From assembly GCF_004364575.1 (NCBI RefSeq), contig NZ_SOAG01000005.1:62001-126000 (forward strand): a stretch of DNA of 64,000 nucleotides, in the 5' to 3' direction. The notes below the pieces were generated by a model, which saw nothing but the letters and a program-made list of their open reading frames with translations, did not search any database and was not told the origin of the DNA. Position numbers and translations under genes: made by a program. Positions 41,204-58,935 of this stretch are shown piece after piece. The stretch's first letter is position 1; every line of letters begins with the position of its first letter. Source of the DNA: Myroides indicus (GTDB taxonomy: Bacteria; Bacteroidota; Bacteroidia; Flavobacteriales; Flavobacteriaceae).

Positions 41204-41250
41204 ATAGGTAAATTACCTATTGACTTTCTACATTTTCAGTGTGATCTTTG
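41204..41250 (+). promoter_or_regulatory. operator-promoter copy A: ATAGGTAAATTACCTAT + TTGAC + -7
   Basis: 17-bp inverted repeat at 41204-41220, followed at once by TGAC so that TTG at 41220-41222 can act as the -33 element. A -7-like GATCTTTG stands at 41243-41250, 20 bases further on. It has the same layout and orientation to transcription as copies at 56.4 and 58.9 kb. No annotated gene follows on the plus strand. Confidence 0.6.
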
Positions 41251-41373
41251 CCTTTGGAATTACAACAAATAGAAAGCTTAAACTGTAGGGATATCGAGGA
41301 GAAGCAAATAAAAGAGATTATTTCACTGAAAAAGAAATATGTTGTTTGTAAGTTGGTCAAACCGTCTTCTTAA
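41248..41373 (+). other. putative small ORF or small RNA of the orphan transcript
   Basis: The 514-base gap between bioB and the aspartyl protease gene has no long ORF. Between operator copy A and the hairpin at 41359 the frame from TTG 41248 (or TTG 41254) encodes about 40 residues (ESLNCRDIEEKQIKEIIS... ending KLVKPSS), with a protein-like mix and two Cys. There is no ATG and the first TTGs are close to the -7 element, so coding is uncertain. A regulatory RNA is the other reading. The rest of the gap (40945-41200) holds the bioB promoter and A+T-rich sequence. Confidence 0.3.
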
Positions 41374-41394
41374 ATTTTTAAGGAGGCGGTTTTT
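41359..41394 (+). terminator. terminator of orphan transcript
   Basis: AAACCGTCTTCTTAA pairs with TTAAGGAGGCGGTTT (two G-U wobbles in RNA), then a T-rich run, on the plus strand. It ends a transcript that would begin at operator copy A. Confidence 0.65.
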
Positions 41395-41458
41395 ATTTAT
41401 ATAAACTACATAATAATTAATTATAAAGCTTTAATATTTTTTACAATAAACATCCTGT

Positions 41459-42643
41459 TCATTTATGTATTTCTATAGTCTTTTCGCCGTCTCTTGTTTT
41501 AAAAGTCAAGGTTAGAATACTGTCTTCTTTTTGTATTTTAGTAAAGTTGCAATATTGTTCTTCCGTAATTCTGTCAATCGGATTATTATTAATTGCTGTA
41601 ATTTTATCGCCAACTTTAACTCCGTTCTTTTTAAGTTGTGAACCATCCCACATAAAGCAAACCTGCAATTCATCTCTGTTGTTTATACAGAATTTAGCAC
41701 CAAAATCTCTATGAACTCCAATAGCCGATTCAGCGCTTTTCGGAACTAATATCATATTGTCTTCTGCAAAGTTTAATAAGGTAATATATTCTTTGAGTAT
41801 GCCCATTCCCAAAAGCGGTTTACCATCCAAAATATATGCTGTAACATTTTTAATTTCAAAATCATCACCTATAGACAATTTATCTAATATAATTTCTTCT
41901 CTTTTACCGCTTTCCATTTGATTAATCGTCAACGTATAGTATCCTTCTCCTTTTCTGGTTTTCATTTTATTTGTTGTTTTAAAATCAGAAAAAAGCTGAA
42001 GTGTACCATCAAAACCTGTATCTAATAATGCTTTAAATTTATTTCTGCGATGACTTATATCTACCAAAGGCAATAAGCCCTGATGATAGCTTAAAGCAAT
42101 TTTTTTAGATTGATCCGGATGTTCAAAAACTCGGTCAGAAAAGGATACGGTTCCGTTAAAAATATCTATTTTCCAATTGCAAAGTTTTATAAGATTCATC
42201 CCTATAATCCCATCAATTTTAGTGCAAAGATGCTTATTAATCTGATCCAAATCGACTACGGCTAATAAAATATCATTAAACTCAATATCATTAATTTTTA
42301 TATTTTCAATAACCGTATAAGCCTCTGTTTGCTTTGCTTTTTCATCGGTAGAAGCTCCGCCTGATATTGTAATTTTATTATCTTCTTTTATTTTATCAAT
42401 ATCAATTATTTTGTCAGAAACAACAGTCATCATTGCGCCGGTATCAAATAGAAAATTATATTTTTTACCGATTATTTCTACTTCAATGATTGGATAGTAA
42501 CGGTCATTCTGGATCACCGAAGCATTTTGTTCAAATGTTCCCGAATGTTCTATATAACCTTTTAAATAATCATTAATATTATTCTGTCCAATACCAATAC
42601 ATGGAAACAGCAATAATAAAATACAAATTATAAGCTTATTCAT
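41459..42643 (-). CDS. secreted retropepsin-like aspartyl protease with PDZ domain
   Basis: A 394-residue protein with a signal peptide (MNKLIICILLLLFPCIGIGQ). Two pepsin-like halves each carry a catalytic motif: FLFDTGAMMTVVS (Asp67) and ALLDTGFDGTL (near residue 209). A PDZ domain follows at the C-terminus (residues about 325-385, NGVKVGDKITAINNNPIDRI). Two DTG motifs in one chain allow an intramolecular active site. It is probably periplasmic. It lies 83 bases downstream of the ParB-like gene on the same strand; a functional link to that pair is not evident. Confidence 0.87.
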   Translation of the reverse strand: MNKLIICILLLLFPCIGIGQNNINDYLKGYIEHSGTFEQNASVIQNDRYYPIIEVEIIGKKYNFLFDTGAMMTVVSDKIIDIDKIKEDNKITISGGASTDEKAKQTEAYTVIENIKINDIEFNDILLAVVDLDQINKHLCTKIDGIIGMNLIKLCNWKIDIFNGTVSFSDRVFEHPDQSKKIALSYHQGLLPLVDISHRRNKFKALLDTGFDGTLQLFSDFKTTNKMKTRKGEGYYTLTINQMESGKREEIILDKLSIGDDFEIKNVTAYILDGKPLLGMGILKEYITLLNFAEDNMILVPKSAESAIGVHRDFGAKFCINNRDELQVCFMWDGSQLKKNGVKVGDKITAINNNPIDRITEEQYCNFTKIQKEDSILTLTFKTRDGEKTIEIHK

Positions 42644-42726
42644 ATTGTAAAATTAAAAGTATTATTTTAAAACTTCAAATCTCCCTTTTCCAAACATAAA
42701 AATAAATATATCCTTTCTTCTTTTCT

Positions 42727-43332
42727 TTATCTCGCTTCCCATGATCGGGAAAACTCTTTATCCTGAAAAGCTTCGGCTAATCCAGTAATCTGTTTTAACC
42801 TCAACACTTCATCCGGATCCATCCCCAGTTCTTCTCCTATTCTATGATTAGTCCAGTCATTTCTTTTAAGAAATGCAACAAGTTTTGCCGATAGCTCCAC
42901 TTGATGTGTACCACGAGCCATATTATGGCGGACTGTTGATGCTACCCTGTTTTCAATCGTTTTATTTAAATAGGACACCGGCAAGTATCCCTTAAGACTT
43001 TCTTTTATATCCGGTATATTTTTACATGCTGTTGTACGATGAAAACCATCAACAACAACCCAATTGTCATCTTTTTTCTCTGTTGCTACTACAACCGGCA
43101 TCGTTAAGCCATCTTTGCGTATAGATAATTCCAACAGCTTCATCTCAGGCGGAGCCACTTTATTCGGATTATAATCGTTTCCTTCCACACAATCCATAGG
43201 TACCAGCTGAATATTGAGTGCCGGATGTTCCAATCCGATAAATTCATATAGCTGTTTAGTGATTTTATTGTATATCGCCACTTTTTCGTCAAAAGAGGCT
43301 TCTTTATTCTGTTCCAGTATTTGTGTTATCAT
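42727..43332 (-). CDS. IbrB-like ParB/sulfiredoxin-fold protein
   Basis: A 201-residue protein with a ParB N-terminal-like domain (residues about 40-130). It shows NPNKVAPPEMKLLELSIRKDG and VVVDGFHRTTACKN, the ExxR-type nucleotide motif altered to DGFHR as in IbrB-like proteins, followed by a small HTH (DWTNHRIGEELGMDPDEVLRL). In E. coli, IbrB works with IbrA to switch on immunoglobulin-binding genes, and similar pairs ride on phages and mobile elements. Its ATG lies inside the 3' end of the IbrA-like gene (29-base overlap), so the two are made together. Confidence 0.85.
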   Translation of the reverse strand: MITQILEQNKEASFDEKVAIYNKITKQLYEFIGLEHPALNIQLVPMDCVEGNDYNPNKVAPPEMKLLELSIRKDGLTMPVVVATEKKDDNWVVVDGFHRTTACKNIPDIKESLKGYLPVSYLNKTIENRVASTVRHNMARGTHQVELSAKLVAFLKRNDWTNHRIGEELGMDPDEVLRLKQITGLAEAFQDKEFSRSWEAR

Positions 43333-44530
43333 TTGCGTAATGAGGTAATTTTAAAAATATATTTAGTTGCTTTTCCATTTCACCTTTTGTTTGGGAAAAT
43401 GAAAGACCTTTGCACCAGTAATCATTTCTTAACAGTACTTTGCATATTCTTCTCCAAGAAGGGGCTTTACGCTGCGATTCCAGTTTTGGATCTGCAGTTT
43501 CCGGAATATCATTTTCAAACCCGTGATTTTTCCAGTATTCAAGAAATTTATCTATCTTTTTAAGGTAATGATTCTTTAAATAGGGAGGCATTGTATTGAG
43601 TAAAAACCGAGAATAGCTTTTATAGGTATGTCCCTCGGGAAGCGTCATTCTGAAATTACCAAATATGGTTCTTTTGTTTTCCGAATACCTGTTTCCAAAG
43701 TTAGCTCCTTCCACACGGGTAACCACTTTTGTCCAGGTTTCAGGCTCCAGTATTTTATAGAGATATAAGCCTCTTCTCTGATCATCTCCATAAGGCTGAC
43801 AAAGTCTCATCTGGGATAAAGGAACACCCGCCAGATACATCAAGTCATACACTTTGTTATAATCATAGCTATATCTTCCATTAGCAATCCATATATCCTT
43901 TGTAGCCCAATCGTATAAAGGATAAAAATTAAAAAGATTAGGAGCTATCCCCGTACTCCATTGTTGGAGTTTATAGCGCTTCTTTGAAAAGTTTGTAATC
44001 GTCCTGTATCGATTATAGCTTTCATCCGTACGAATTCCAACCAAACAAGCAGTATCTTCGCCTTGTGCAAACCATTTGCCAAACTCTAAAACAAATTCCT
44101 CAAATTCCATTCCCTTGCGAAAAAACGGAAAAAAATTTTGATCTTTAATCACTGAAGAATGATCAGGGTATTCACGAACCCAAGCACCTTGTTTTTCTTT
44201 ATCCCAACATATCCAGTGAGGTTGGAACTGGCTTACCGCGTTGCGCAGATGAATAGGAAGACAAACCCAATATGCTCTCACTTCCGGACGAGATACCATC
44301 CGCATAATATAATCAATCGTATGATGATATTGCGCTTCAAGATCTACAATCAAAACATCAACAGGCAATCTGTTATGAAGTCTGGCTGCTTCAATAGCCA
44401 TATTAAGCATCACACCGCTGTCTTTTCCTCCGCTGAAAGACACATATACTTTTCGGAAATTAGAATAGATAAAGTCAAAACGATTTACAGTAGCTTCGTA
44501 AACAGTAGTATTTTTATACGTTTTTGACAT
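43304..44530 (-). CDS. IbrA-like PAPS-reductase-family protein (DUF3440)
   Basis: A 408-residue protein with an adenine-nucleotide alpha-hydrolase (PP-loop) domain. Residues 33-38 read SGGKDS, as in PAPS reductase, DndC and tRNA thiolases, followed by a DUF3440-type C-terminal region (YDWATKDIWIANGRYSYDYNKVYDL and YRNDYWCKGLSF-like segments). It lacks the C-terminal ECGLH Cys motif of sulfate-assimilating CysH, so it is not expected to reduce PAPS. It overlaps the ParB-like partner gene by 29 bases. The gene is probably horizontally acquired; its biochemical role is unknown. Confidence 0.87.
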   Translation of the reverse strand: MSKTYKNTTVYEATVNRFDFIYSNFRKVYVSFSGGKDSGVMLNMAIEAARLHNRLPVDVLIVDLEAQYHHTIDYIMRMVSRPEVRAYWVCLPIHLRNAVSQFQPHWICWDKEKQGAWVREYPDHSSVIKDQNFFPFFRKGMEFEEFVLEFGKWFAQGEDTACLVGIRTDESYNRYRTITNFSKKRYKLQQWSTGIAPNLFNFYPLYDWATKDIWIANGRYSYDYNKVYDLMYLAGVPLSQMRLCQPYGDDQRRGLYLYKILEPETWTKVVTRVEGANFGNRYSENKRTIFGNFRMTLPEGHTYKSYSRFLLNTMPPYLKNHYLKKIDKFLEYWKNHGFENDIPETADPKLESQRKAPSWRRICKVLLRNDYWCKGLSFSQTKGEMEKQLNIFLKLPHYANDNTNTGTE

Positions 44531-44651
44531 CTTTATATTTTTATAAGGTCTAATTTACAAAAAATCAAAGAAATAATACTTTTCTGAGATTGGTATTTAA
44601 GTTTCCCCTTATAATTTATTAGTTAAATGCTGTTAGTTCTGAGCATGTAAC

Positions 44652-44771
44652 TTATAGCGCAAAAAACACTTCTTTCTTATCCACTTTAAGCGCTCGGGAG
44701 ATAGCCACTGCAGTATTAACTCTCATAAAATACAATCCGCTGCCGGCATTATTCGGTTTTACCCTTGATTA
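44652..44771 (-). pseudogene. remnant of an XRE-type HTH regulator gene
   Basis: The 397-base gap between the IbrA-like and ankyrin genes has no intact gene. On the minus strand a frame ending at 44652 reads RVNTAVAISRALKVDKKEVFFAL and stops. It lines up with the end of a Cro/C1 HTH (compare the usual TALKIAKALxVxxxELF). The first half of the HTH is missing or out of frame. It is probably the relic of a regulator that came with the IbrA/B pair. Nothing else is seen in the gap. Confidence 0.4.
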
Positions 44772-44927
44772 GTTTTATTTACACTTTTAGGCAATACATA
44801 AAGCAAAAATACTTACAACCATAAGCTTCAACCAGTACAGTACACTCCAGCAAACTTTGATTTACCTTAAAAAAGACCAGTTTGTAAACAGACCTTAATA
44901 AATGCTATAAATCATCTGACAAACGAT

Positions 44928-45596
44928 TTACGATTTAATAATTGCAACAATTTCTTTATAACCTTTCCGTTCGGCATGCTGTAAAGGCGTTACACCATCG
45001 TAATCCGCAATATCCATTTTAGCTCCTGCATCTTTTAAAATTTGAACGATTTGCTGGTATTTTTTACTTCCATCTCCTAAAATAACGGCTTCCATCAAAG
45101 CTGTCCAACCCAAACGATTCACATGATCGACAGGATAACTTTTAGTATTTGCCAATAATCGTACGGTTTCTACGTGACCACGTTCACAAGCGGGAATCAA
45201 AGCTGAACCGTAATACCGATTAAATACATCAAAACGAGCTCCGTTATCTAAAAAAAGCCGAACCAATTCAGTTTGTCCGCTGGCTCCGGCATATAAAAAT
45301 GGGCTGTCCAAATTATCCGCTTGCTGATTAACATCTGCACCATGCTCTACCAGTAATTTTGCCATTTCAAAACTTTTGTTATTTACTGCAATCAATAATA
45401 TCGAGCGTTTATTGTTGTCCGCAGTATTTACATTTGCACCGTTTTCCAAAGCTTTAGCAACCATTTGCAGGTTGTTCTTTTTAACTGCTTTTAAAATATT
45501 CTCCTCATTCATAATTTCTGTATTTACATCGTCTGTTCTTGAATGACATGAGGCTATCGTCACCATCATTGCCAATGCTATAAAAATTAATTTCAT
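44928..45596 (-). CDS. ankyrin-repeat lipoprotein
   Basis: A 222-residue protein with a lipoprotein signal (lipobox IASC, Cys17) and about five ankyrin repeats from residue 30 to the end. Examples are NLQMVAKALENGANVNTAD, NKSFEMAKLLVEHGADVNQQ, GQTELVRLFLDNGARFD and GYKEIVAIIKS. Ankyrin repeats make protein contacts, so it probably binds a partner at the periplasmic face of a membrane. It lies 20 bases downstream of the amidohydrolase gene and likely shares its transcript. Confidence 0.9.
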   Translation of the reverse strand: MKLIFIALAMMVTIASCHSRTDDVNTEIMNEENILKAVKKNNLQMVAKALENGANVNTADNNKRSILLIAVNNKSFEMAKLLVEHGADVNQQADNLDSPFLYAGASGQTELVRLFLDNGARFDVFNRYYGSALIPACERGHVETVRLLANTKSYPVDHVNRLGWTALMEAVILGDGSKKYQQIVQILKDAGAKMDIADYDGVTPLQHAERKGYKEIVAIIKS

Positions 45597-45616
45597 TTTT
45601 CTGTTCTACTATCAGA

Positions 45617-46969
45617 TTAATAAACTATACTCCCCTTATAAATCAACGAATGTACAGGCGACATTCTTGAAACTGCTTCTGCAGAACAGCCTGCATCTAT
45701 CAATACTATATCAGCATCATCGCCAGCTTTTGGCCATTGCTGAACACCTTTGTCGTCTAAAGGAATTGGTCCTGCTGTAGCCAGTTTTAACATTCTGGAT
45801 AATCCAAACTCAGTAACCTGTCCATATAATTGGGCAGCTAAATTAGCTTTTTGCAAAACACTTCCGGTTCCCATCGTACTCCAATAATCTATAATACTGT
45901 CATTTCCTGTCATCACCTTTACACCGTGTTTTAACAATATTGGAATAGGCATAATTAATCCGCCAAACGGGATAGTAGAAATAATGCCAACTTGTGCTGC
46001 AGCCAATTTTTCTGCTATTTCTTCTTGTTTGTCCTTTTCTAAAGTCCCCAGTGCGAAAGCATGGCTGACAAATGTTTTTCCTTTTAAAAAATGATTTTCA
46101 TTGACTTTCTCGATTAGGTATTCAATAGTTTTAAATCCAGACTCTCCTGATTCATGCAAGTGAATATCGATTCCCTTATTGTAATCCAATGCTAATTGAA
46201 CGGTTGTATCTATCGTTTTTCCAATTGAGCCATCCACAGTTGAAGGATCCAGCCCGCCAATAAAGTCAACGTTCATTTTTGCAGCTTCTTTCATATACGG
46301 AAGCGAATCGGTATAATATAATCCGTGCTGAGGAAAAGCAACCAGCTCCGCGCCAAAGCTGTCTTTTTTGTTTTCTAAAGCGATTTCCAGATTTTTTAGT
46401 GAATCCATTTTGGAAGTAGGCTCAATATTAACATGGCTGCGGGCAAATCCTGTTCCAAAAGACTGCAATAATTCGATCAATTTTTCTGCTTTATACGTAG
46501 AGTTTTTCAGCATATTCCGAAGCGTTCTCTGTTCAAGCTCTATCATTCCTTTAATTCCACCCGAACGGCGTACCGCACGCCATCGGTCGGCATATAAAGT
46601 CTTGTCTAAATGGATGTGCATATCCTTAAACGATGGCAGCATAAGCAAGCCTTTGGCATCAATTGCGTTTATATCAGTTTGATTAGCACTTATTTTTTTA
46701 ATTTTTCCGTCGGCTATATCAATCGTAAAAAGTTCTGTTTTTGTTCCGATGACTTCATCATTTTCATATTCGAAGCCAGTTTCTAACCGAACGTTTTTTA
46801 ATTTAAAACTTTTTGATTTTATTTGACTTAAAAGTGTTTCATCTTCGTTTTGTGCAGTTTTAGCTGATTGTGATTTTGCATGCAACATCCCCGGAACAAG
46901 TGTTAACCCGGCAAGTCCTAAACTAGAGTTTCTTAAAAAATCTTTACGCGATAGGTTTATCTTTTCCAT
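45617..46969 (-). CDS. exported amidohydrolase (cytosine-deaminase-like) with Tat-like signal
   Basis: A 450-residue amidohydrolase. The N-terminus LSRKDFLRNSSLGLAGLTLVPGMLHA is a Tat-type signal in which the second Arg of the RR pair is Lys. The metal site is complete: HIHLDKTLY (HxH), HLHESGE, VSHAFAL and MTGNDSI (Asp). The order fits the cytosine deaminase/N-isopropylammelide-type subfamily of secreted enzymes. The substrate is not clear. It is followed by the ankyrin lipoprotein gene (20 bases) and preceded by an AraC-type regulator gene on the same strand. Confidence 0.88.
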   Translation of the reverse strand: MEKINLSRKDFLRNSSLGLAGLTLVPGMLHAKSQSAKTAQNEDETLLSQIKSKSFKLKNVRLETGFEYENDEVIGTKTELFTIDIADGKIKKISANQTDINAIDAKGLLMLPSFKDMHIHLDKTLYADRWRAVRRSGGIKGMIELEQRTLRNMLKNSTYKAEKLIELLQSFGTGFARSHVNIEPTSKMDSLKNLEIALENKKDSFGAELVAFPQHGLYYTDSLPYMKEAAKMNVDFIGGLDPSTVDGSIGKTIDTTVQLALDYNKGIDIHLHESGESGFKTIEYLIEKVNENHFLKGKTFVSHAFALGTLEKDKQEEIAEKLAAAQVGIISTIPFGGLIMPIPILLKHGVKVMTGNDSIIDYWSTMGTGSVLQKANLAAQLYGQVTEFGLSRMLKLATAGPIPLDDKGVQQWPKAGDDADIVLIDAGCSAEAVSRMSPVHSLIYKGSIVY

Positions 46970-47123
46970 AATGAGTTTATTTTATGTTCACCACAAAGTA
47001 CGCGATATAAATATTACTCACACTATCATAAAAACTGCGAATGCTTGTAAAATTTATCTTTTTAGAGTGTTTTCAAGTATTTGTCATTTTCCTGACAATC
47101 CAATTGTATTAAAAAAGAAGAAG

Positions 47124-48002: not shown

Positions 48003-48250
48003 CTTTTTGAATATTAATTATAAATATAAAACCAAATATTCATTCGTAAACAAGTTCGCTTTAAGTGGGCAACCTAATCCTTTTTCCAAATACGATGGCT
48101 ATATGATACACTTTTTTTAATCAGAAGCTCATTTATCCAAATTGACAACCAATGTAATACTTGCAAACCATAACTATGTCATTGATAATTAAAACAATGA
48201 GAATAGATTGAACATAGTACGATTTTTGTTTATTTTCGTGTTAAAGCGTT

Positions 48251-48814: not shown

Positions 48815-49051
48815 TATATGTTTAATTGATTTTGTAATCTTCTCTTGCTAATCATATTGGAGGAAAACTACAGTTTCTTCACAGGATTTTGTTTATATAC
48901 AAATTTATGAATAATCAATGAATTAGGTATATACTAATTAAGTACAATTTATGGATGAGTTTTCTCTAAAGTGTATAATTAATTTTAAGTTTTGCTATGT
49001 TTAACAACTCTGCCAGAGTTTGCTTATAAGTTACTGTCTAAAGTGTAAAAC

Positions 49052-51088
49052 CTACCGCTTCACCACCTTAACCGTTCCACTATTGCCTTCAACCGTGGTA
49101 ATAACAATAAAATACACACCGTTGCTGACGTTTTCCAGATTTATCTGGTTGTTGCCTGCAAACAAGCTTTGTTTAATCTCTTTACCGCTCATATCATATA
49201 TCGTGTAACCCAACAGGGTATCTGTAGTTTCCACATTAACAATCCCCGTGGTTGGGTTGGGATAGACATTAAATGACAGTTTATTAAACTCATCCGTACC
49301 CATATTGCCCGAACCGCATTCGCTGTTTGCCAGTTTGGCAACAAAAAAATCGGCTTCGCCGGTACTGATTAAAGGATCTAACCCCAAATCGTTGTCCCAA
49401 AACAAATTGGCATCAAAGCTACCTCCGGCAATATAATTGCCGTCATTATCCACGGCAACGGCTGTCATTCTTTTACTGCTAATAGCTTCTCCCGCTATGT
49501 CGTGTACACCTAACACTTTTCCGGACTGCTTGTCAAAACGAACTAATATAGGATCAGGTTGGTAATTTTTTACTGGACGTACTATTTCTATATTATCCCA
49601 AAAATCCCCCCCTCCCTGTGCTCCAAGTACAACTTCATCATTTTTTACTGCAATGCCTTTACCATAACGTGGTGCAACTCCTTTGCCACTTCCTGCATAA
49701 GCTGCTGTAGCCTGTACCCATTGTACATCGCCATCACTGTTAAATTTGATAATCATAGGAACCGTTCCGTGAGCTCCGGGGGTAAAAAAATAGGGTTGAA
49801 CAGATGAATCGGTCGGATCATATATTTTAACGTTGTTTTCATTGGGACGCCTAAAAAAACTCCCCCCCACATATACATCGGAGTCTTTATCCACAACCAA
49901 GGAAAAAATACAATTTGGGGGTAGATTTCCCCCGCCCGTAAGCTGAGAATAAATCTCCCTACGCCATACTTCACTACCATCATGATCATTTATAGCTAAT
50001 ATAAACGAACGTTCTACAAATGCTTTACTTTCATAAGAAAAAGGTAGCACAGAACCAGTTATATTTCCTCTCATTCCGGCAATATAATATTGTTTTTTGT
50101 TTTCATCATAAGCAAAACGAGTTCGTCCATAAGCATCAAAACCTGTATTTGGCGCAACAGGCAATTCAAAACTATTTACATAATTTAAATTGAGGTCATA
50201 TTGTGCTATCAAAAATTTAAAATGGTTGGTGGTATCGTTTATAACAGTTACATTACCGTCTAAATGTGTACCGGTATCGAAGGCGACAATAAAATGTATT
50301 TTATTATTACTGATTGCCAAGTCCAAAACCCTGGATTGAAAATTAGAACTATTTACGTCACCTTGCAAAGCAACTCTTTTTACCAGTTTTCCGTCACTGT
50401 TGTATTTAACCAGATAGGTTGTTTTAAACCCTTCCTGTGGAATTTCTGCATTCCCATTTTTCAGATCTGCAAAAGGAACGGAATCAGTTTCTGTAAAGTG
50501 CAAAGGGGGGCGGATCCCCGGTCCATCACCGGGACTGTCATTCCTGACATTAACCCCTACATATACATTGTTTTGGTTATCTAATACTAAATTATATGCA
50601 TCGTCATCCATCCACCCGCCTATGGTCTGGCTCCACCGTACTTCTCCCTCACAAGTGGTAGAAAACAAAAAAATATCTTTAGTTCCTCCTTCCCGAGCAT
50701 TTGAAGTATTGTATGCCGGAACCGGTACGCCGTCCAAGTGGGTTGAGGGTGTCCATGCTCCGTTATAAATTGTTTCGCGGGGTCCTTTTAAAGTAGCTAT
50801 AAAATAATAATTATTATCGGTTCCCGCCTTTATATCATGGATTTGTTCATCGTTTATCCCTCCTAATCCCCCCCACCTTCCTCCGCCGTTCATTGCCCAT
50901 TGCCACTGGTAGGGTTGGGTTTGCTGGGCGTTGACAGATATTGAAAATAAAGAATGGAGAATGGAGAATAGAAGGATTTGGAAATTTATTAATTTGGGAA
51001 TTTGAAAATGAGATGCTGACTTCTCGATACGCTCCGCTACTCGTAGTGACGGTTCAGTATAAAAGGATATGTGTATTTTTTGTTTCAT
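49052..51088 (-). CDS. T9SS-exported beta-propeller-like surface protein
   Basis: A 678-residue protein. Residues about 600-678 are a type A T9SS sorting domain (FNVYPNPTTGIVNVET, YTIYDMSGKEIKQ, LENVSNGVYFIVITT). The middle has repeated blocks of the SBBP/propeller type (VKYNSDGKLVKRV, IKFNSDGDVQWVQATAAYAG, VRFDKQSGKVLGV, VAVDNDGNYIAGGSF). The signal peptide is odd: about 33 residues, partly encoded by a REP-like repeat, precede the hydrophobic core QILLFSILHSLFSISVNAQ. Secretion through Sec and then T9SS is expected, with release or attachment at the surface. Confidence 0.88.
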   Translation of the reverse strand: MKQKIHISFYTEPSLRVAERIEKSASHFQIPKLINFQILLFSILHSLFSISVNAQQTQPYQWQWAMNGGGRWGGLGGINDEQIHDIKAGTDNNYYFIATLKGPRETIYNGAWTPSTHLDGVPVPAYNTSNAREGGTKDIFLFSTTCEGEVRWSQTIGGWMDDDAYNLVLDNQNNVYVGVNVRNDSPGDGPGIRPPLHFTETDSVPFADLKNGNAEIPQEGFKTTYLVKYNSDGKLVKRVALQGDVNSSNFQSRVLDLAISNNKIHFIVAFDTGTHLDGNVTVINDTTNHFKFLIAQYDLNLNYVNSFELPVAPNTGFDAYGRTRFAYDENKKQYYIAGMRGNITGSVLPFSYESKAFVERSFILAINDHDGSEVWRREIYSQLTGGGNLPPNCIFSLVVDKDSDVYVGGSFFRRPNENNVKIYDPTDSSVQPYFFTPGAHGTVPMIIKFNSDGDVQWVQATAAYAGSGKGVAPRYGKGIAVKNDEVVLGAQGGGDFWDNIEIVRPVKNYQPDPILVRFDKQSGKVLGVHDIAGEAISSKRMTAVAVDNDGNYIAGGSFDANLFWDNDLGLDPLISTGEADFFVAKLANSECGSGNMGTDEFNKLSFNVYPNPTTGIVNVETTDTLLGYTIYDMSGKEIKQSLFAGNNQINLENVSNGVYFIVITTVEGNSGTVKVVKR
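51016..51052. repeat. REP-like palindromic repeat inside coding sequence
   Basis: The stretch TTCTCGATACGCTCC plus GCTACTCGTAGTGAC is a G+C-rich imperfect palindrome of the kind scattered between flavobacterial genes. Here it lies in frame within codons about 12-25 of the T9SS protein gene at 49052-51088, ahead of the hydrophobic signal core. Confidence 0.55.
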
Positions 51089-51234: not shown

Positions 51235-54200
51235 TTATTTTTTAATCAATTTTTCGGTCGCAATGCGTTTGCCGTCTGCTTCCAGTATAACAATATATGT
51301 TCCCGGAGCAAAATGGCTGATATCCAGTGTGATTTCGCCCGTTTTGCCGCTTACTTTCTGTTTGTACCGCTGTACGCCCAAAAGGTCATAAACTGCAATA
51401 ACATCTGCGTTTTTGTACTTAGTACCCGTGCTAAACGTCAGCACTGTATTTTGTGAAGCAGGATTGGGTGACAGTATCAGCGAAGCAGCCTGCGTGGCTA
51501 CGTTTGTTGTGGTTTTACTATAGATATCGGGCAGCTCTACCGGTACGGTGTCTGCACAATTTGGTCCGCTTACCACAAACAGATCCGGCGCTCCGGGCAT
51601 ATAAGCACCGCTGACGTAAAAATCAACCACAAAAGAGTTGAAGCCCGGATTAAGCACCAGCACAGACGGAACAAATGTTCCGTAAGCGTTAGCACTGTTC
51701 AGGTGTACCGTAACCGGGCTGCCCGTTGGGTTATTCATTTGAACGTAGTACTTGATTCCGCCCGGTATAATTTCCATCCTTTCAAAGTGAGGTTCAAATC
51801 CACAGTCATTTGGCGGGCATCTGTCCAGGTCAAACATAATAGAAGGAGTATTGCTGCCAAAGGTACAACCGTCCTGAGTAACCGTTAACTGGTAAATGCC
51901 ACCCGTATTCACTGACTGGTTAGGAATAAAATAAGTTCCGCTTTGGGTAACCGCCCCGTTTACTTCCCATTTATAATTTTCATAAACGCCCAAAGGTCCT
52001 AACAAATACGCATCGCAAACCGTATAACAGCCATCCGGTACTACCCACAATGCGCGGTTTGGGTTATGAGGCACCTGCAGATAGCCAACAGCACTGCATC
52101 CGGACGTTTCGGTATAGGTTACGCTATACGCCCCGCCGTGGGTTACTTCTATCACCTTTCCGGTCATGCCGTTGCTCCAGTTATACACCCCTGTTACCGG
52201 TCCGGTTGCCGTTAATCGGATGGTGTACGGATCGCAATTAATCACGGTGTAACTAATGGCTGGCTGGGTTACCGGAGGATGTACCTCCACCGTTGCCGTA
52301 AAACTGTTGGTACACAGCGGATCGCTTGCCGCACGGGTATGGAAGGTATAGTTATACGTACCCGGAGACAGTCCGTTTAGGGTTAACGTCATATTGGTAC
52401 TTCCGCTTACCCACGTATTATACCCCGCCGGCAGTGCCGGTCCGCTCCAGCGGTGTTCTACCACATTATCTGTGGTTATACCCACCAAAACAGTACCTCC
52501 GCCATAACACACACTGGTGTTTCCGTTGATAATAGCAAACGGAGGCTGACGCAAAACATAATTTTTAGGATAAAACACCATCTCATAGTTCTTACACCCT
52601 TTGTCATCCACCAATACCACCCAGTAACTTCCGCTTTGTACCGGCTGATAGGTCATGCCCGTACCTACTTGCTGATCACCGCGCATCCAGATGACATCGG
52701 CGGGAGGTGTTGACCCCAGTGGCGATTCATAAGTTAATGGTGTAGCATTACCATCGCAATAATCCGGATTAACGGGCAAAATAGTTCCTGTACTTAAATC
52801 AGTTTCATTGATAATTACTTCAACAGTATTAGTTGATGTGTAAGTACAACCATAAAGGGTAGTAACTTTTAAACTAACTTGATAATCATCCGGTTTCGCA
52901 AACTGAACTGGTGTGTGTTCTTCCTTTGTAATAAAAGATGTGCCATTAAAGCTCCATTCATAGGTGTTGTTGGGGTTATAATCCGGTGTGGTTAAAGTAA
53001 TCACCTCCTCAGAACAATAATTTAACGGCGACAGCGTAAAGTTCGGATCCGGTTCGGGTTCTAAAGTTACCGTTACCGAAGTTTCACATTCCGGCGTACC
53101 CTGGGTAGAGTTTACTTTCATGGTATAAGTATAGGTACCCGGTCCTATGCTGCTTATGGTCGTACTGTTGCCGGATGCTCCTGCCGAAACGCCCGGTCCG
53201 GAATAAGCATAGCTCAGCGTACTAAGCGGTATATTATACGTTAGGGTGTTGTTGTGCAGCACCACTTTGTACGTACCATCGCCGTTACAGCTAATGGCGG
53301 TTTCCAGCTTGGCTTCGTATTTTTTTTCAACCGTATAGGTCCTAATCAAAGTACAGCCGTCGTAATCCAGATATGCCGTAACTGCATGTGCTCCCGGCAC
53401 CGTACCTGTAAAGGTTGCTGTATCTGTACCCTGCCCTCCCGTTACGGTAAGGTGCTCACTGCCCGCCCACGAAATGGATGTTGGCGGATAGTCAGCATCC
53501 AGCTCTGCCGTAATCTGGTTACAGCCTGTCCATTCTGCCGATACACTGGCATTAGGATTTGGCGAAACGGTGCAACCATCCGGTCCCGGACTGCCTCCGC
53601 AGCTCTCCGTTACAAGGATATTATCTGATTTGACCAGACAGCCGTTTTTATCGGTTACCTCCAACGAATAGCTTCCGCCCGGATTCAATCCGATAATGGT
53701 ATAATTGGGACTGGTACTTGATTGCAGTAAAGTTGTTCCTTTAAACCATTTAAATATCATAGAGGCTGTAATACCTGTAGATACGGTTGCCGACAGATTA
53801 ATAGAACCATATTCCTGCGGACATACCACATAACTGTATAGCGGTGAAATGTACAGCTCTGTTTTTGGAAATACAATTGCGGTTTTTGACGCTGATACTC
53901 TGTTGCTGCACACTTCCAGTTCAAGCTCTATCGTTCTGGAAATATTATTAGACGTATTGTTGGTAAAGTTGTTATTTATGGTCAGGCTGCCACTTCCTGT
54001 ATAGCTATAGGTATTCTGATAAACGCCGTCTATCAGTACCCGTACCTGCGCAGGAGCAGGCGGAGTCATCGTAATAGGAATATGCACACTGCCTGCTGCA
54101 GGGCAAATATCCGGTATGCTGCCAATAGTAACCACCGGGTTGTTTATCAGCTGAATCGTACGGGTTTGTGTAAAAATCACACCACACTTAACTACTTCCA

Positions 54201-55728
54201 CCTGTAAAATTCCCGTTGCAGAAGTACTGATTTCGTTAAAACTTACAGTTACCGTATGGTCGTGAATACCATCAATAATACTTCCAAAATTGTCCGCTCC
54301 TGTACTACTCAAAATACTCCAACTTACAAGATCGGGTACTATCCCTTCCAGATCTACCGTAAATGTAGCACTACTGCTGGAACAAAATGCTGCCTGTCCG
54401 CTGTCATTGATAATATACGGATTAATAACTGCTTCATTAACAGTAAACTCAACTGGATCAGAACTACACGTTTTTCCGTTTTTTACAATCTGTTTAACCA
54501 CACTTACCGTTGCCGGAGTACTGGTAAACTGTATATCTGCCTGTGCTCCGCTATTGTCGCCAATAACTTCTCCGTTATCCACGCTCCACAAATAAATAAA
54601 GCCCGGTTCTTCTTCACTCAGCGTATAGGTATAAGGCGTATCTATACATACGTGATCCGGTCCGTCGATAGTGCCGGTTATAACTGGTGTTTCTACAATT
54701 TCCACCGTCAGAGGATCTGCCATGCATCCGCCGTAATCTGCTGTGATAACATATGTTCCCGGGGTATTAAAAGAATGGGTAATTAGAGTTCCGATAGAAG
54801 TCTGTACCACATTTCCGTCTAACAATATCTGCCATCGCACAGATACCGCATTATGGGTTTCAAAAGACATAGTGGCTCCCTGACAATTGGTAAGTTCGTC
54901 ACCCGTTATAATTTCCGGTCGCTCCAGTACCGAAAAAGGTATATCGGCATTTCCTATACAAAATCCATCGTCTATCAGGGTGTTGTTATATTCAACGCTT
55001 AAAACGTAATTTCCGGGCATTGCTCCGTCTACCACAATTTCGTTGCGCTGATCTGTATATACCAGCATAGGATGATTGGGATCTCCGTCTATCTTCCATT
55101 TAAAATCTGTTGCCGGCCATTGAGGGAGCTTAAAACGCCCCTGACCATCCTGACAGACTATGTCGGATCCTTTAATGATTGCTGTATCGAGGATGACCGG
55201 AATTTTTACCGTAGTCCAATGCGGGCAAGAACAATGCGAGAGGTAGTATACATAGCCAAAGCCATCTTCCGGATCTACGTGATCCCAAACTACTTCTACC
55301 GACGTACCGTGTTCTGCTATTATTGTTCCTCCTTCTACTCGCCATTCACCACCGCAACCGTCGGTTACGCTGTACGTTTCATGAGCTCCGTGACAAACCA
55401 CAGAAGGACAGGAAACTTCAAATTCCAAAGCGTTTGCAATGTTTACCTCCCAGCTATACGTTGAACTACAATTACAACTGTTGGTAACCGTTAAAGTAAT
55501 TAAATACACTCCCGGATGGTCGTAAGCGTGTGTAGGTTCAAAAAGGCTGGAGGTAGTGCCGTCTCCAAAGTCCCAAAGGTAATTGACAATAGGTGAACCT
55601 CCGTTGTCAACTGAAAGATTATTAAAAGAGATAGGTGAAAAAGTACAGAAGCTTTTTTGTCCCGGTTCAGGTCCGTCAAACTTAAACTCAGCGGTTGGAT
55701 TGATCGTTTTTTCTATACAAATTGTCAA
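51235..55728 (-). CDS. giant PKD-repeat T9SS surface protein, main part of a gene cut by an in-frame stop
   Basis: A 1497-residue frame rich in PKD/Ig-like beta domains. The first (YLWDFGDGTTSSLFEPTHAY with HPGVYLITLTV) is a textbook PKD; many PKD-like units with paired Cys follow. The C-terminus is a type A T9SS sorting domain (LILSPNPASQNTVLTF, IAVYDLLGVQRYKQ, ISHFAPGTYIVIL, ending KLIKK). It has no signal peptide and its only start here is TTG 55728 (TICIEKT). The same frame continues upstream through SSSNTNATVLWGSNGNGS to a TAA at 55825-55827, beyond which lies a 95-residue piece with a signal peptide. It is thus most likely the body of one 1625-codon gene. The DNA is clearly richer in G+C than its neighbours. 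Adhesion or matrix function is inferred. Confidence 0.85.
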   Translation of the reverse strand: MTICIEKTINPTAEFKFDGPEPGQKSFCTFSPISFNNLSVDNGGSPIVNYLWDFGDGTTSSLFEPTHAYDHPGVYLITLTVTNSCNCSSTYSWEVNIANALEFEVSCPSVVCHGAHETYSVTDGCGGEWRVEGGTIIAEHGTSVEVVWDHVDPEDGFGYVYYLSHCSCPHWTTVKIPVILDTAIIKGSDIVCQDGQGRFKLPQWPATDFKWKIDGDPNHPMLVYTDQRNEIVVDGAMPGNYVLSVEYNNTLIDDGFCIGNADIPFSVLERPEIITGDELTNCQGATMSFETHNAVSVRWQILLDGNVVQTSIGTLITHSFNTPGTYVITADYGGCMADPLTVEIVETPVITGTIDGPDHVCIDTPYTYTLSEEEPGFIYLWSVDNGEVIGDNSGAQADIQFTSTPATVSVVKQIVKNGKTCSSDPVEFTVNEAVINPYIINDSGQAAFCSSSSATFTVDLEGIVPDLVSWSILSSTGADNFGSIIDGIHDHTVTVSFNEISTSATGILQVEVVKCGVIFTQTRTIQLINNPVVTIGSIPDICPAAGSVHIPITMTPPAPAQVRVLIDGVYQNTYSYTGSGSLTINNNFTNNTSNNISRTIELELEVCSNRVSASKTAIVFPKTELYISPLYSYVVCPQEYGSINLSATVSTGITASMIFKWFKGTTLLQSSTSPNYTIIGLNPGGSYSLEVTDKNGCLVKSDNILVTESCGGSPGPDGCTVSPNPNASVSAEWTGCNQITAELDADYPPTSISWAGSEHLTVTGGQGTDTATFTGTVPGAHAVTAYLDYDGCTLIRTYTVEKKYEAKLETAISCNGDGTYKVVLHNNTLTYNIPLSTLSYAYSGPGVSAGASGNSTTISSIGPGTYTYTMKVNSTQGTPECETSVTVTLEPEPDPNFTLSPLNYCSEEVITLTTPDYNPNNTYEWSFNGTSFITKEEHTPVQFAKPDDYQVSLKVTTLYGCTYTSTNTVEVIINETDLSTGTILPVNPDYCDGNATPLTYESPLGSTPPADVIWMRGDQQVGTGMTYQPVQSGSYWVVLVDDKGCKNYEMVFYPKNYVLRQPPFAIINGNTSVCYGGGTVLVGITTDNVVEHRWSGPALPAGYNTWVSGSTNMTLTLNGLSPGTYNYTFHTRAASDPLCTNSFTATVEVHPPVTQPAISYTVINCDPYTIRLTATGPVTGVYNWSNGMTGKVIEVTHGGAYSVTYTETSGCSAVGYLQVPHNPNRALWVVPDGCYTVCDAYLLGPLGVYENYKWEVNGAVTQSGTYFIPNQSVNTGGIYQLTVTQDGCTFGSNTPSIMFDLDRCPPNDCGFEPHFERMEIIPGGIKYYVQMNNPTGSPVTVHLNSANAYGTFVPSVLVLNPGFNSFVVDFYVSGAYMPGAPDLFVVSGPNCADTVPVELPDIYSKTTTNVATQAASLILSPNPASQNTVLTFSTGTKYKNADVIAVYDLLGVQRYKQKVSGKTGEITLDISHFAPGTYIVILEADGKRIATEKLIKK

Positions 55729-55824
55729 TACCTCAACTGTACTGTCCTCATACGTTATAGTGAGTGTTAAACTTCCGTTACCGTTGCTACCCCATAATAC
55801 AGTGGCGTTAGTATTACTGCTGCT

Positions 55825-56112
55825 TTATACAGTACCTCCGGTAGCCTGCCACTCAACGCTGACAACATCATTGGCAGAAAAACTGTAGTTTACCGTACTT
55901 TCTCCGCAAACACGAATACATACACCTAAAGAAATCTGCTCATAAAGATTTTTATACTGATCCTGACCTTCAGAATCATACTCAATACACCCCACTTCCT
56001 GATCCCACGTCAGGACAGGGTTGTGTGCTGTTTGCGCCTTTATACCTAAAGACCACAGGACAATCAGCATGATGCCCAATGCCCGAAAGAGCAATCTGGT
56101 AGTTTTTGTCAT
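55825..56112 (-). pseudogene. 5' fragment of the giant PKD gene, with signal peptide
   Basis: A 95-residue frame with a good Sec signal (TRLLFRALGIMLIVLWSLGIKAQ) and the start of a beta domain (CIEYDSEGQDQYKNLY, then VVSVEWQATGGTV). It ends at TAA 55825-55827 and the downstream giant frame is in the same phase (56112 minus 55728 is 384, a multiple of three). One codon change, for example CAA or AAA to TAA, would explain it. Alternatives are a sequencing error or programmed read-through. Confidence 0.75.
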
Positions 56113-56187
56113 AATTAAGACTTTTTTGATTTGTAATCATACTTAATAAATTAGATTATTTAAAGGTTAATAATTATTTGAAATATG

Positions 56188-56212
56188 CTGTATCACTGTT
56201 AGATACAGTATC
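56188..56212 (-). promoter_or_regulatory. competing hairpins in the leader of the giant PKD gene
   Basis: In the long leader, CTGTATC / GATACAG (loop 7) and GATAC-A-GTATC share one strand, so two overlapping stems exclude each other. They lie about 80-100 bases before the ATG at 56112. Confidence 0.35.
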
Positions 56213-56342
56213 TGTATAAATTATCTCTTCTCAAAGTTCTATGACAAAAATTATAAAGCTGTGATTTTTTTTTATCGTATTAATGGAATCAAAATTCCGG
56301 CGAAATCGTTACAATTTTTGCTAGTAAGATTAAATTATGAGT

Positions 56343-56390
56343 GCAATTTAGAAAGCTTTAACAAGCAAGTCAATAGGTAAATTAACTATT
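56343..56390 (-). promoter_or_regulatory. operator-promoter copy B upstream of giant PKD gene
   Basis: On the plus strand ATAGGTAAATTAACTAT at 56373-56389, preceded by GTCA. Read on the minus strand this is the inverted repeat followed by TTGAC (-33 at 56371-56373) and, 20 bases on, TAAATTGC as a degenerate -7 (56343-56350). One base of the right arm differs from copies A and C. The remaining 371-base gap is A+T-rich leader. Confidence 0.65.
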
Positions 56391-56483
56391 TATTAAGTTA
56401 ATTGGAGTTATAAAACCAAAAACACAGGGTAAACAAGTGATTTTTTATTGATTTATGTGTAAAGGACACAGAGGAAGGTATAT

Positions 56484-57137
56484 TTAAATTATTTTATTTA
56501 AATCAATTATTCCATATTTTACACAATATAAAATAGCAGACATCATATCGGGAAAATTATATTTTCGCTGTATATTTTGTTTATGGGCGTTAATTGTTCT
56601 GGTACTTATATTTAGGTTATTTGCAATATCTTTGGGCTTGACTCCTTTTGCGGTTAGTTCTATAATCTCCAGTTCTCTTTCCGTAAACTGGATTTCCATA
56701 CTTTCAACGTCAACATTTAAATTGACCTTGATTTCATCTATGACAGAAGCCAAACCCTGCTCAAAATAAAAACCGTTGTCTTTCAGATTCCAGATTGCAT
56801 CTTCCAACTCTTTGGGAGGTGTGTTTTTAGTAAAGTAACCTTGTGCCCCCATCCTGATTACTTTTTTTATTGTATCTGTATCTCTCATAAGGGTAAGTAT
56901 GGCCGTTTTAATATGAGGAAAGCGCTCTTTAATATTTTGATACGTTTCAAAACCATCCATTACAGGCATTTGCAAATCCAACAGCAATATGTCAACCGGT
57001 ATGTATTCCAACCGTTCTAAAAGTTCTGCTCCGTTAGATGCTTCAAGAACAACAGCCATATCCTTAAAATCCCTGATTAAAATTGCCAGAGTTTTTCTAA
57101 ATAAAGTATGATCGTCTGTAATTGCTATTCGTAACAT
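56484..57137 (-). CDS. NarL/LuxR-type response regulator
   Basis: A 217-residue two-component response regulator. Its receiver domain has acidic residues DD at 8-9, phospho-acceptor Asp54 in LLLDLQMPVMDG, Thr in TAILTLMRD and Lys in GYFTKNTPP. The C-terminal LuxR HTH is at residues about 148-210 (FTERELEIIELTAKGVKPKDIANNLNISTRTINAHKQNI). ATG 57137 is preferred over TTG 57143. It lies 30 bases after the kinase stop. It is the best candidate to bind the ATAGGTAAATTACCTAT sites in front of its own operon and of the giant PKD gene. Confidence 0.95.
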   Translation of the reverse strand: MLRIAITDDHTLFRKTLAILIRDFKDMAVVLEASNGAELLERLEYIPVDILLLDLQMPVMDGFETYQNIKERFPHIKTAILTLMRDTDTIKKVIRMGAQGYFTKNTPPKELEDAIWNLKDNGFYFEQGLASVIDEIKVNLNVDVESMEIQFTERELEIIELTAKGVKPKDIANNLNISTRTINAHKQNIQRKYNFPDMMSAILYCVKYGIIDLNKII

Positions 57138-57167
57138 AGTCAAATATATTAATAAATAATGTTGAAT

Positions 57168-57935
57168 CTATAATTGCTTTTTTAAATGGATTTGTATTTT
57201 ATTTCCTTTGTCAACCGGAATCTGCATCAATTGAGCTCCCATATATTTAATTCGTGAAGTTATATTTTTTAAGCCCATTCCGTAAGAGATTTTTAAGCTT
57301 TTGTAAAAATCAAATGAATTGCCGTCATCTGTAACTTCCAGAATAATATATTTACTTTTGTCCCGGATTGCAAAATCTATACAACTACATTTACCGTGTT
57401 TGATTGCGTTGGTAACCAACTCCTGTATTATTTTATACAGTTCATAGCCTTGTGCTGACGGAATATCTATATTTTCTGCATAATACTCTTCATTAATATC
57501 AATTTCGTTCCATTTTCTCACTCTTTCAAAATAGCTCTTCAACGTTGAAACTAATCCCAAGCTATCTAACATTGGTGGCATAAGGTTATAGCTAATATTT
57601 CCAATATCGGCAAGTATGTTGCTCAGTGTACTTTCTACTTCCAAAAATATACTTTTTTTAAAATCGTCTTTTTCTTTGCGATAAAGGATGGTAATATAGT
57701 TTTGCACAGCGCTTAAATCTCCGCTAACGCTATCGTGTAAATCGGACGCAATCCGCTTGCGCTCTTTTTTTTCGGTTTCCAAAGTTATATGGAGTAAAGC
57801 ATCAGACTCCTCCCTGTTCATATTGTGTACTTTGGTACGATACAGCAAAACAATTAAAACAATACCCAAAACAGAAAGTAACATAATTACTGTTCCAATC
57901 CAAAAAAATATTTTTATACCCGCTTCATGTTCCAT
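57168..57935 (-). CDS. DesK/NarX-type sensor histidine kinase without extracellular domain
   Basis: A 255-residue kinase with one N-terminal TM helix (about residues 8-31), a HisKA_3 dimerisation domain with His67 in RIASDLHDSVSGDLS, and an HATPase_c domain (IIQELVTNAIKHGK as N box, EVTDDGNSFDF as G1, GMGLKNITSRI as G2). There is no periplasmic sensing domain, so input probably comes through a partner. ATG 57935 overlaps the 3' end of the membrane protein gene by 22 bases; a TTG at 57953 is also in frame. Confidence 0.93.
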   Translation of the reverse strand: MEHEAGIKIFFWIGTVIMLLSVLGIVLIVLLYRTKVHNMNREESDALLHITLETEKKERKRIASDLHDSVSGDLSAVQNYITILYRKEKDDFKKSIFLEVESTLSNILADIGNISYNLMPPMLDSLGLVSTLKSYFERVRKWNEIDINEEYYAENIDIPSAQGYELYKIIQELVTNAIKHGKCSCIDFAIRDKSKYIILEVTDDGNSFDFYKSLKISYGMGLKNITSRIKYMGAQLMQIPVDKGNKIQIHLKKQL

Positions 57936-58552
57936 ACCCCGATAATTAAACAAGTCCTCAAAATAAGCGTTGCAATAATATTAACCAGCCAAATATCAAA
58001 AAGATACACTCTATTTTCAAATATAAAACAACTTAGCAAAAATAAAAATGAAGTACTCGAATAATATATTGCCAATCCGGAAACAAAATAGAAATTAGAG
58101 TCCTTAAGCAGATTCGGAATCTCCATTTTCTGAAAAAGCTGTTTAAACCATATATACGAAAAAAAGAAAACAAACAATGTTATTGCTATTTTATTTATAG
58201 CATTTGCCACAAGCGACTGATATTCTTTCCAAAAATAAAAAGACAAGATGTATGTAGTTAGTAATACAATGAAAGATATAGTAAAAACTTTTTTATAGGA
58301 AGAGCGAAGTAGTTTGTAAAAAAAATAATATATAGTCAAAAACTCTAATAATGAATATATCTGAAACCAGTAAGTTGTATTAACTTTAAGAATAAAAGTA
58401 CCTATCCCCTCATATAGTGTTGCAATAAAAGTAAGCCATACAAAGGGTTGAATAGAATCTGAAACAACAAAAGCTCTTTTTTTCAGGAATAATACAATGA
58501 GAGGAATTATTCCAGCAAAAAGAGCTGCATATGTAATAGAATAATACAACAT
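57914..58552 (-). CDS. multi-TM membrane protein of the kinase operon
   Basis: A 212-residue protein with about six or seven hydrophobic helices (YYSITYAALFAGIIPLIVLFL at the start, ILRTCLIIGVWNMKRV at the end) and short loops. I do not recognise the family. ATG 58552 is used because it forms a TAATG overlap with the stop of the preceding gene; the longer frame from TTG 58585 is less likely. It overlaps the kinase gene by 22 bases. Tight coupling to a kinase that lacks its own sensor domain suggests a membrane sensor or a 7TM-like input module. Confidence 0.8.
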   Translation of the reverse strand: MLYYSITYAALFAGIIPLIVLFLKKRAFVVSDSIQPFVWLTFIATLYEGIGTFILKVNTTYWFQIYSLLEFLTIYYFFYKLLRSSYKKVFTISFIVLLTTYILSFYFWKEYQSLVANAINKIAITLFVFFFSYIWFKQLFQKMEIPNLLKDSNFYFVSGLAIYYSSTSFLFLLSCFIFENRVYLFDIWLVNIIATLILRTCLIIGVWNMKRV

Positions 58553-58869
58553 TAAAGTTTTATCAAAACACTGTATTGAGGACAAATATTAGGACAAGGC
58601 GATAAATTTTCAAGAATAACACCTTGTGTTATATCTTCTCCCTGTATATCTACCCCTACCAACACCAGATTATTTTTTCCGGATGTTGCATCATAACCAT
58701 TGTAAATACGAATCCCTATGCAGTTTTCCTGCTCTAAAATAAGATTAAGTTTATTGCTTCCCGCAAAAAATGATTTGATAGCCCCCGGATTGTTTTCCTG
58801 AAAAGCATGTGTATATTCAATTGCCTGATCTAGTGTAATAACATCTGAAGAATCTCTATTTATTTCCAT
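58552..58869 (-). CDS. small conserved-looking cytosolic protein, first gene of the kinase operon
   Basis: A 105-residue protein without signal or membrane helix. It has an N-terminal helical part (DVITLDQAIEYTHAFQENNP), then a central beta region (KLNLILEQENCIGIRIYNGYD, NNLVLVGVDIQGEDIT), and a C-terminal CPNICPQYS with Cys92 and Cys96 plus Cys50, which could bind metal or be redox active. The start ATG 58869 lies after the -7 element at 58888-58895; the longer frame from 58890 would overlap it. Its stop overlaps the next ATG (TAATG). The function is not recognised. Confidence 0.75.
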   Translation of the reverse strand: MEINRDSSDVITLDQAIEYTHAFQENNPGAIKSFFAGSNKLNLILEQENCIGIRIYNGYDATSGKNNLVLVGVDIQGEDITQGVILENLSPCPNICPQYSVLIKL

Positions 58870-58887
58870 AATTAAAAGTTTTATTAA

Positions 58888-58935
58888 CAAATATACACAT
58901 TGCTAAAGCTTATAGTCAATAGGTAATTTACCTAT
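58888..58935 (-). promoter_or_regulatory. operator-promoter copy C upstream of the two-component operon
   Basis: Plus-strand ATAGGTAATTTACCTAT at 58919-58935 preceded by GTCA. On the minus strand the repeat is followed by TTGAC (-33 at 58917-58919) and, 21 bases on, a perfect -7 TATATTTG (58888-58895). The arms are perfect. The rest of the gap up to the tRNA terminator at 59384 holds nothing I can name. Confidence 0.7.

Follow-up and report, generated by a model that had tools for sequence, protein, structure and literature searches.

Which regulator acts through an inverted repeat that stands before a two-component operon, a giant surface-protein gene and a stretch read as an orphan transcript, and what does it control? 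The question is raised by a 64,000-nucleotide stretch of the Myroides indicus genome (contig NZ_SOAG01000005.1, positions 62,001 to 126,000; here called the window), in which the sequence ATAGGTAA(A/T)TTACCTAT occurs three times within 17.7 kb (Table 1, copies A to C). The operon encodes a small protein, p112, followed by a membrane protein, a sensor histidine kinase and a response regulator. The DNA switch formed by the repeat very probably belongs to this adjacent sensor-regulator operon. As judged from sequence comparison, the operon probably encodes an autoregulated two-component activator, which would act on the operon itself, the surface protein and the orphan RNA in M. indicus, and on defence genes in some relatives. 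Below, G-numbers denote the genomes searched (G000 is the M. indicus genome itself, a 3.06-Mb assembly) and L-numbers the individual loci examined.

All three repeats lie where a first-pass annotation of the window had placed them, copies A and C being exact and copy B carrying one change, and the window contains no fourth copy at up to three mismatches, as that annotation had also stated. By chance 0.42 copies would be expected, and none of 100 shuffles reached three. A genome-wide scan, which the annotation had proposed as a check, found five places at up to two mismatches: all three with zero or one mismatch are inside the 17.7-kb stretch, the close copies being these three only. Neither of the two places with two mismatches runs into TTGAC on either strand; at one of them (C3:755) the minus strand runs into TTGTT, without a -7 element at +20 or +21. 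Among the matches listed for 59 relatives there was no exact copy of the 17-mer, and at up to two mismatches 102 forward matches stood against 108 for the reversed control (summed by hand). Because the 17-mer was no commoner than its reversed control, the comparison was moved to the operon and to the dyads in its own upstream region.

The promoter geometry described in the first-pass annotation was recovered. The last T of each of the three repeats is the first T of TTGAC, and the distance from the TTG to the start of a -7-like octamer is 20 bases at copies A and B and 21 bases at copy C. In promoters of Flavobacterium johnsoniae, according to one report (PMC6847099), TANNTTTG occupies -12 to -5, which places the dyad centre in the window at -43/-44, near the -45 that had been claimed. 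The same spacing recurs in relatives: at 61 distinct palindromic sites abutting a TTG, gathered with no -7 requirement, TAnnTTT(G/A) is found at +20 in 37 and at +21 in seven (44 in total), with a background of 0.22% per position. In a set of 99 sites, some of them selected from 84,980 species with a -7 element required, 43 are preceded by a second, loosely matched dyad at a distance of exactly 33 bp.

The p112-membrane protein-kinase-regulator operon is, to judge from its gene content across genomes, a conserved module. The membrane protein has matches in 28 of 249 genomes of the same genus, its own included (34 places), and of the 32 operon loci fetched, 31 have p112, all 32 the membrane protein and the kinase, and 30 the regulator (L068 starts at the edge of a contig, neither G155 locus has the regulator, and one weak second place in G084 is not included). 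At E 3e-28 or better p112 is found in 38 of 299 genomes, and with weaker relatives in 63. Four of its residues (C50, C92, P93 and C96) are invariant in 24 sequences; it has no Pfam, NCBIfam or PDB match (no PDB sequence at E 1), and AlphaFold, run on six sequences, reached a mean pLDDT of 65, with no PDB match below E 0.001 in Foldseek. In the regulator, D9, D54 and K104 are invariant in 28 sequences, as expected of the phospho-acceptor aspartate and switch lysine of a NarL/LuxR-type protein, and the kinase is of the HisKA_3 type that goes with such regulators. A second copy of the operon exists in the M. indicus genome on contig C24 (L067, G000:C24:338-2658), with a different recognition helix in the regulator, a kinase split over two frames and no clear operator.

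One line of evidence linking operator to operon is their joint variation. Dyads were sought upstream of p112, or of a gene for a membrane protein of about 150 amino acids that leads the operon in some species, and a strict dyad (TAnGTA-N-TACnTA with TTG within three bases) was found at nine of 31 operon loci. Three operator forms were recognized, and they go with different forms of the regulator recognition region: TAGGTA-N3-TACCTA adjoins the regulators of M. indicus and G022 and the second regulator of G196, TAAGTA-N4-TACTTA those of G107 and G284 and the first of G196, and TACGTA-N4-TACGTA those of G084, G254 and others. G196 has two systems and both corresponding operators. The regulator of G284 is a mosaic, with a receiver 70% identical to that of the window and 62% to that of G107, whereas its DNA-binding domain is 100% identical to that of G107 and 49% to that of the window; the operators before its operon and its PKD gene have the G107 form. 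By this comparison the architecture of the operator is conserved and its letters are not, the half-sites co-varying with the DNA-binding domain of the regulator. The proposal that a LuxR-type regulator acts near -44, controls its own operon and is linked to the PKD gene is therefore supported, with a strict dyad before the operon in G107, G196 and G284.

Two elaborations of the layout were seen. Promoters of repeat-protein genes of the type IX secretion system (T9SS) at L140, L144, L146, L147 and L299 have an additional TATAGGTAAGAAGACCTAGT motif downstream of TTG and upstream of the -7 element, so that the spacer itself holds a second dyad, an imperfect one. In G146 (L074, 10939-10974) the p112 operon and an RteC-family gene diverge, and in the region separating them three overlapping dyads follow one another in 10-bp steps, each outer dyad abutting a TTG on its own strand.

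Across genomes, operator counts follow the operon. Of 28 genomes that have the membrane protein, 16 contain the pattern CAATAnGTA-N3/4-TACnTA, with 61 matches between them; of 28 that lack it, six do, with nine matches. In the larger set of 299 genomes, 78 matches fall in the 38 with a strong p112 and 85 in the 261 others (tallied by hand); genomes with any match number 23 of 38 versus 68 of 261, and those with three or more 8 of 38 versus 1 of 261. A few genomes give most of the signal (G254, 15; G084, 11; G016, 9; G300, 8; G172, 6). The full TACGTA promoter pattern occurs in 59 stretches of the 84,980-species collection, 47 of them in Flavobacterium records and 12 elsewhere; these 12 are nearly all from Bacteroidota, one being an Ignavibacteria metagenome-assembled genome. 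At L176 and L217 (Algoriphagus) and L168 (Myroides) the pattern comes directly after the gene for a response regulator or after a kinase and regulator gene pair.

What stands downstream in the relatives shows that the "small private regulon" of the first-pass annotation was too narrow a description: the operator family is wider in the genus and in some species precedes anti-phage and T9SS genes. The defence genes concerned are listed in Table 1, and the remaining downstream genes encode T9SS proteins, a recurrent small protein and products of no known function. No defence gene was found at the three operator sites of the window itself. When first downstream genes were scanned singly with PADLOC at 1e-5, 14 of 29, partly picked by eye, gave a match, versus 1 of 20 nearest upstream genes used as a control (P 0.001). 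PDC-M37A cassettes occur in five of the 299 genomes, with a dyad upstream in both operon-bearing ones (G254 and G196) and in none of the three others (G242, G228 and G232), and each dyad is in the form of its host, TACGTA in G254 and TAAGTA in G196. The recurrent small protein, of 115-139 amino acids (LKINILNEDG...GFLIDREI..GLYITFD), has no NCBIfam match and is found behind the operator in seven Flavobacterium genomes (L137, L142, L153, L166, L174, L186 and L196). Three sites of G254 (L129, L130 and L133) precede unrelated genes, yet their flanks are almost the same and lead in each case to a GTATGAC...GTCATAC dyad.

In the window, the annotation was right that copies B and C precede the PKD gene and the operon, and their operators are kept in the three relatives found with this PKD gene (G107, G196 and G284); the PKD gene itself is, however, broken here. 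Its promoter in these relatives keeps a one-mismatch dyad and the layout TTGAC-N18-TAAATTGC. The adjoining T9SS protein also has a homologue in the same locus of G196 and G284 (judged by eye from the N-termini). Conservation of all three sites, which the annotation had suggested examining, holds for B and C; the transcript behind copy A has no homologue in the 299 genomes searched. The folding energy of this predicted transcript is -28.6 (z -2.34), a value reached by 3 of 200 shuffles. It contains no clear open reading frame from a normal start; a 39-codon frame from a TTG is visible by eye, and no peptide is claimed. Past the predicted terminator comes the 3' end of an aspartyl-protease gene that converges on it, and in G284 a dyad like that of copy A adjoins the homologous gene in the opposite orientation. 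A conserved small RNA was considered and rejected, since the strongest hit beyond M. indicus falls on the dyad itself in G284, and alignment did not lengthen a 35-bp stretch that recurs. An Rfam scan of the window gave only the three tRNAs at the gathering threshold.

Table 1. Features of the window, with positions, and genes downstream of the operator in relatives, with loci
Feature	Position or locus	Strand	Remarks
Operator copy A	41204-41220	+	perfect dyad TAGGTA-AAT-TACCTA; -33 TTG 41220-41222; -7-like GATCTTTG 41243-41250
Predicted orphan transcript, about 140 nt	41256-41396	+	15-bp terminator hairpin 41359-41392, then T run; start site predicted
ParB-N-like protein adjoining PAPS-reductase/DndC-like protein	42727-44530	-	below Pfam cut-off and weak NCBIfam matches, respectively; a pair that we take to resemble IbrB/IbrA
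T9SS protein adjoining PKD gene	49052-51088	-	homologue in same locus in G107 (tblastn)
Giant PKD-domain protein	51235-56112	-	T9SS type A sorting domain; split by in-frame TAA 55825-55827
Operator copy B	56373-56389	-	one arm changed; -33 TTG 56373-56371; -7-like TAAATTGC 56350-56343; upstream of PKD gene
NarL/LuxR-type response regulator	56484-57137	-	ATG start; receiver PF00072 and GerE helix-turn-helix PF00196
Sensor histidine kinase (HisKA_3 and HATPase_c)	57168-57953	-	PF07730 3.8e-06, PF02518 5.7e-08
Membrane protein (by reading the sequence), 223 amino acids	57914-58585	-	no family match
p112, first operon gene	58555-58869	-	105 amino acids from ATG
Operator copy C	58919-58935	-	perfect dyad; -33 TTG 58919-58917; consensus -7 TATATTTG 58895-58888; upstream of four-gene operon
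Three tandem tRNA genes	59454-59754	-	equal scores; upstream of operon
cas9-cas1-cas2	L131		first/second genes downstream
cas9-cas1	L183		first/second genes downstream
Gabija gajA-gajB	L170		first/second genes downstream
Hachiman hamA	L175		first/second gene downstream
UG5-type reverse transcriptase	L179		first/second gene downstream
CAP12-type TIR	L206		first/second gene downstream
ThsB TIR with PDC-M37AB	L156, G196		downstream
PDC-M37AB	L133, G254		downstream
C5 methylases	L152, L154		downstream
OLD/AAA ATPases with or without DUF4435	L141, L207, L209		downstream
AbiJ	L139		downstream
DUF6119	L145/L211		downstream; AbiH two genes further

The mechanism that we propose is as follows. A signal would be read by the membrane protein and the kinase, perhaps with p112 as a modulator; the phosphorylated regulator would bind the repeat as a dimer centred at -43/-44 and would activate promoters whose -33 TTG abuts the site. 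In the window it would switch on the operon that encodes it, the surface gene with PKD domains and the terminated orphan RNA; some relatives would use this module and operator layout to control a variable set of T9SS surface genes and anti-phage genes. Binding, activation rather than repression, the signal, the role of p112 and the function of the RNA are all things that we infer from DNA sequence.

Several observations weigh against this reading. The operon loci other than the nine with a strict dyad have half-sites or nothing clear upstream. G284 retains two TAGGTA-N3 sites near the aspartyl-protease gene despite its different DNA-binding domain, and since the DNA flanking its mosaic regulator also comes from the G107 side, the domain swap is not a clean one. 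Only copy C has a consensus -7 element, those of A and B being poor. A DNA search of 299 genomes (the M. indicus genome included) found no homologue of the orphan transcript, with short matches only, and the PKD gene is interrupted after codon 95 by the TAA, leaving a downstream frame at 51235-55728; G107 and G196 read through at this position, and the stop may be an assembly error, the mark of a recent pseudogene or due to another cause. As to defence, 30 further first genes scanned together matched nine families, with one member each, giving at least 15 of 59 overall, and this conservative count set against the 1 of 20 upstream genes gives only a weak P of 0.04; the choice by eye among the singly scanned genes weighs in the same direction. 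Among operon-bearing genomes, cas9, located through Cas1 homology, has a dyad upstream at one of eight readable loci, that of G254, and has none in G016, G193, G280, G196, G022, G099 and G284. In 18 genomes with no clear operon (14 without p112, four with a weak p112), no cas9 has a dyad, and 1 of 8 versus 0 of 18 means that cas9 alone does not separate the two groups. This sample comprised 20 of the 89 genomes with Cas1 plus nine chosen for the operon, L346, G172, G084 and G296 not being readable. Among the genomes with a weak p112 and no dyad at cas9, G101 stands out by a related set of kinase and regulator and by two dyads at other places. The cas9 of Flavobacterium jejuense, which was located through its dyad, has one as well, and an operon there is indicated by the first operon gene (L201). 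We had at first taken cas9 as a clean test of whether the operator follows the operon and abandoned it as such, the first comparison having used two loci found through the dyad and seven of the eight readable loci having none. Counting cas9 (1 of 8) and PDC-M37A (2 of 2) together, a dyad is present at 3 of 10 cassettes found by homology in operon-bearing genomes versus 0 of 21 in others, a one-sided P of about 0.03 (calculated by hand). Adoption of defence genes is on these counts patchy: it is strong in species with tandem TACGTA sites and absent for cas9 in the others read.

The dyad could instead be bound by some other regulator, either the paralogue on C24 or an unlinked factor, with the adjacent operon as just another target. 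The C24 operon does have a different recognition helix, although its kinase frame is split, the strict dyad is missing at many operons, and G284 has two operator types and one p112 locus. Even so, operator type and the DNA-binding domain of the neighbouring regulator correspond from species to species, as they also do for the two paralogues of G196, and operator counts track the operon; we regard this explanation as quite unlikely. The contact between dyad and TTG raises a further alternative, that the regulator is a repressor which blocks RNA polymerase at -33 until a signal arrives; the sign of regulation cannot be read from sequence alone. A centre near -43/-44 with a second site about three turns upstream is what is expected of an activator, and the second dyad 33 bp upstream at the 43 sites fits this. 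The poor -7 elements of A and B also suggest that an activator is needed, and repression appears very unlikely to us.

An explanation of another kind is that the operator travels in mobile cassettes or as a promoter family, the defence link being the history of cassettes in a few species. The absence of a dyad (0 of 21) at homologous cas9 and PDC-M37A loci of genomes with no clear operon argues against this, as do the two PDC-M37 cassettes with dyads of different form, each that of the host, and the presence of at least ten unrelated gene families behind the operator. We therefore hold it to be unlikely, even though the flanks of the three G254 sites are nearly identical, defence genes are mobile, the dyad is missing at most readable cas9 loci of operon-bearing genomes and most sites come from few genomes. 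Returning to the autoregulated activator, a broader form of it is possible, and is put forward tentatively, as something rather short of probable: in part of the genus Flavobacterium there would be an immune regulon, in which one two-component system, through a rigid tandem operator at -33, switches on diverse acquired anti-phage systems together with surface proteins, and in which cassettes are adopted by gaining the operator of the host. The window would then be a stripped-down version, with the RNA as a possible regulatory output.

Each of the known systems nearest to this one differs from it in some respect. GacA is a LuxR-type regulator, and Gac acts post-transcriptionally through small RNAs and RsmA. 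According to PMC11888443, Gac/Rsm of Pseudomonas is a two-component pathway controlling phage defence and anti-bacterial functions with targets that vary between species, and its authors suggest that comparable pathways "may well await discovery" in other phyla. Our system is similar in its LuxR-type regulator, and in some relatives defence genes stand behind its operator in sets that vary between species, though not at most cas9 loci of operon-bearing genomes; unlike Gac/Rsm, it belongs to another phylum and its operator stands before the genes themselves. The regulator scores 107.7 bits with the GacA model NF007018, below the cut-off of 280 for a GacA orthologue, and no Rsm small RNA was among the Rfam matches in the window at the gathering threshold, RsmA/CsrA not having been searched for. 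VraTSR and LiaFSR are envelope-stress systems of Gram-positive bacteria, and like the operon they join a NarL-type regulator to a HisKA_3 kinase and a membrane protein; among solved structures, the one that matches the regulator family best carries the label VraR (1e-44). The kinase is a weak match to the LiaS model (90.9 bits, cut-off 450), and the 223-amino acid protein has no Pfam or NCBIfam match at E 0.01 that would make it a VraT/LiaF-family partner. The operon differs from these systems in that p112 and the membrane protein are in no family, and in its operator, targets and phylum. PorX, by comparison, is not of the NarL type and its targets are secretion-machine genes. The Porphyromonas PorXY-SigP system is likewise reported to place T9SS-related genes of a member of the Bacteroidota under two-component control, but by way of an extracytoplasmic function (ECF) sigma factor (PMC4800418). 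In Flavobacterium columnare mucin raises the acquisition of CRISPR-Cas spacers, again linking an environmental signal to CRISPR in a Flavobacterium, and the terms "two-component" and "promoter" were not found in the text searched (PMC9233685). In the literature searched, which took in few subscription papers, we found no earlier description of the operator or the operon, and three operator sequences occurred in none of the texts.

When bacteria express their anti-phage systems is largely an open question. In some relatives of M. indicus part of the immunity may be switched on by a single signalling system, and the operator family described here offers a concrete candidate in the Bacteroidota for a coordinated defence regulon whose DNA code can be read. 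The DNA-binding domain of a regulator would allow its operator to be predicted, and that operator in turn its targets, and the uncharacterised targets would be candidates for defence or surface functions.

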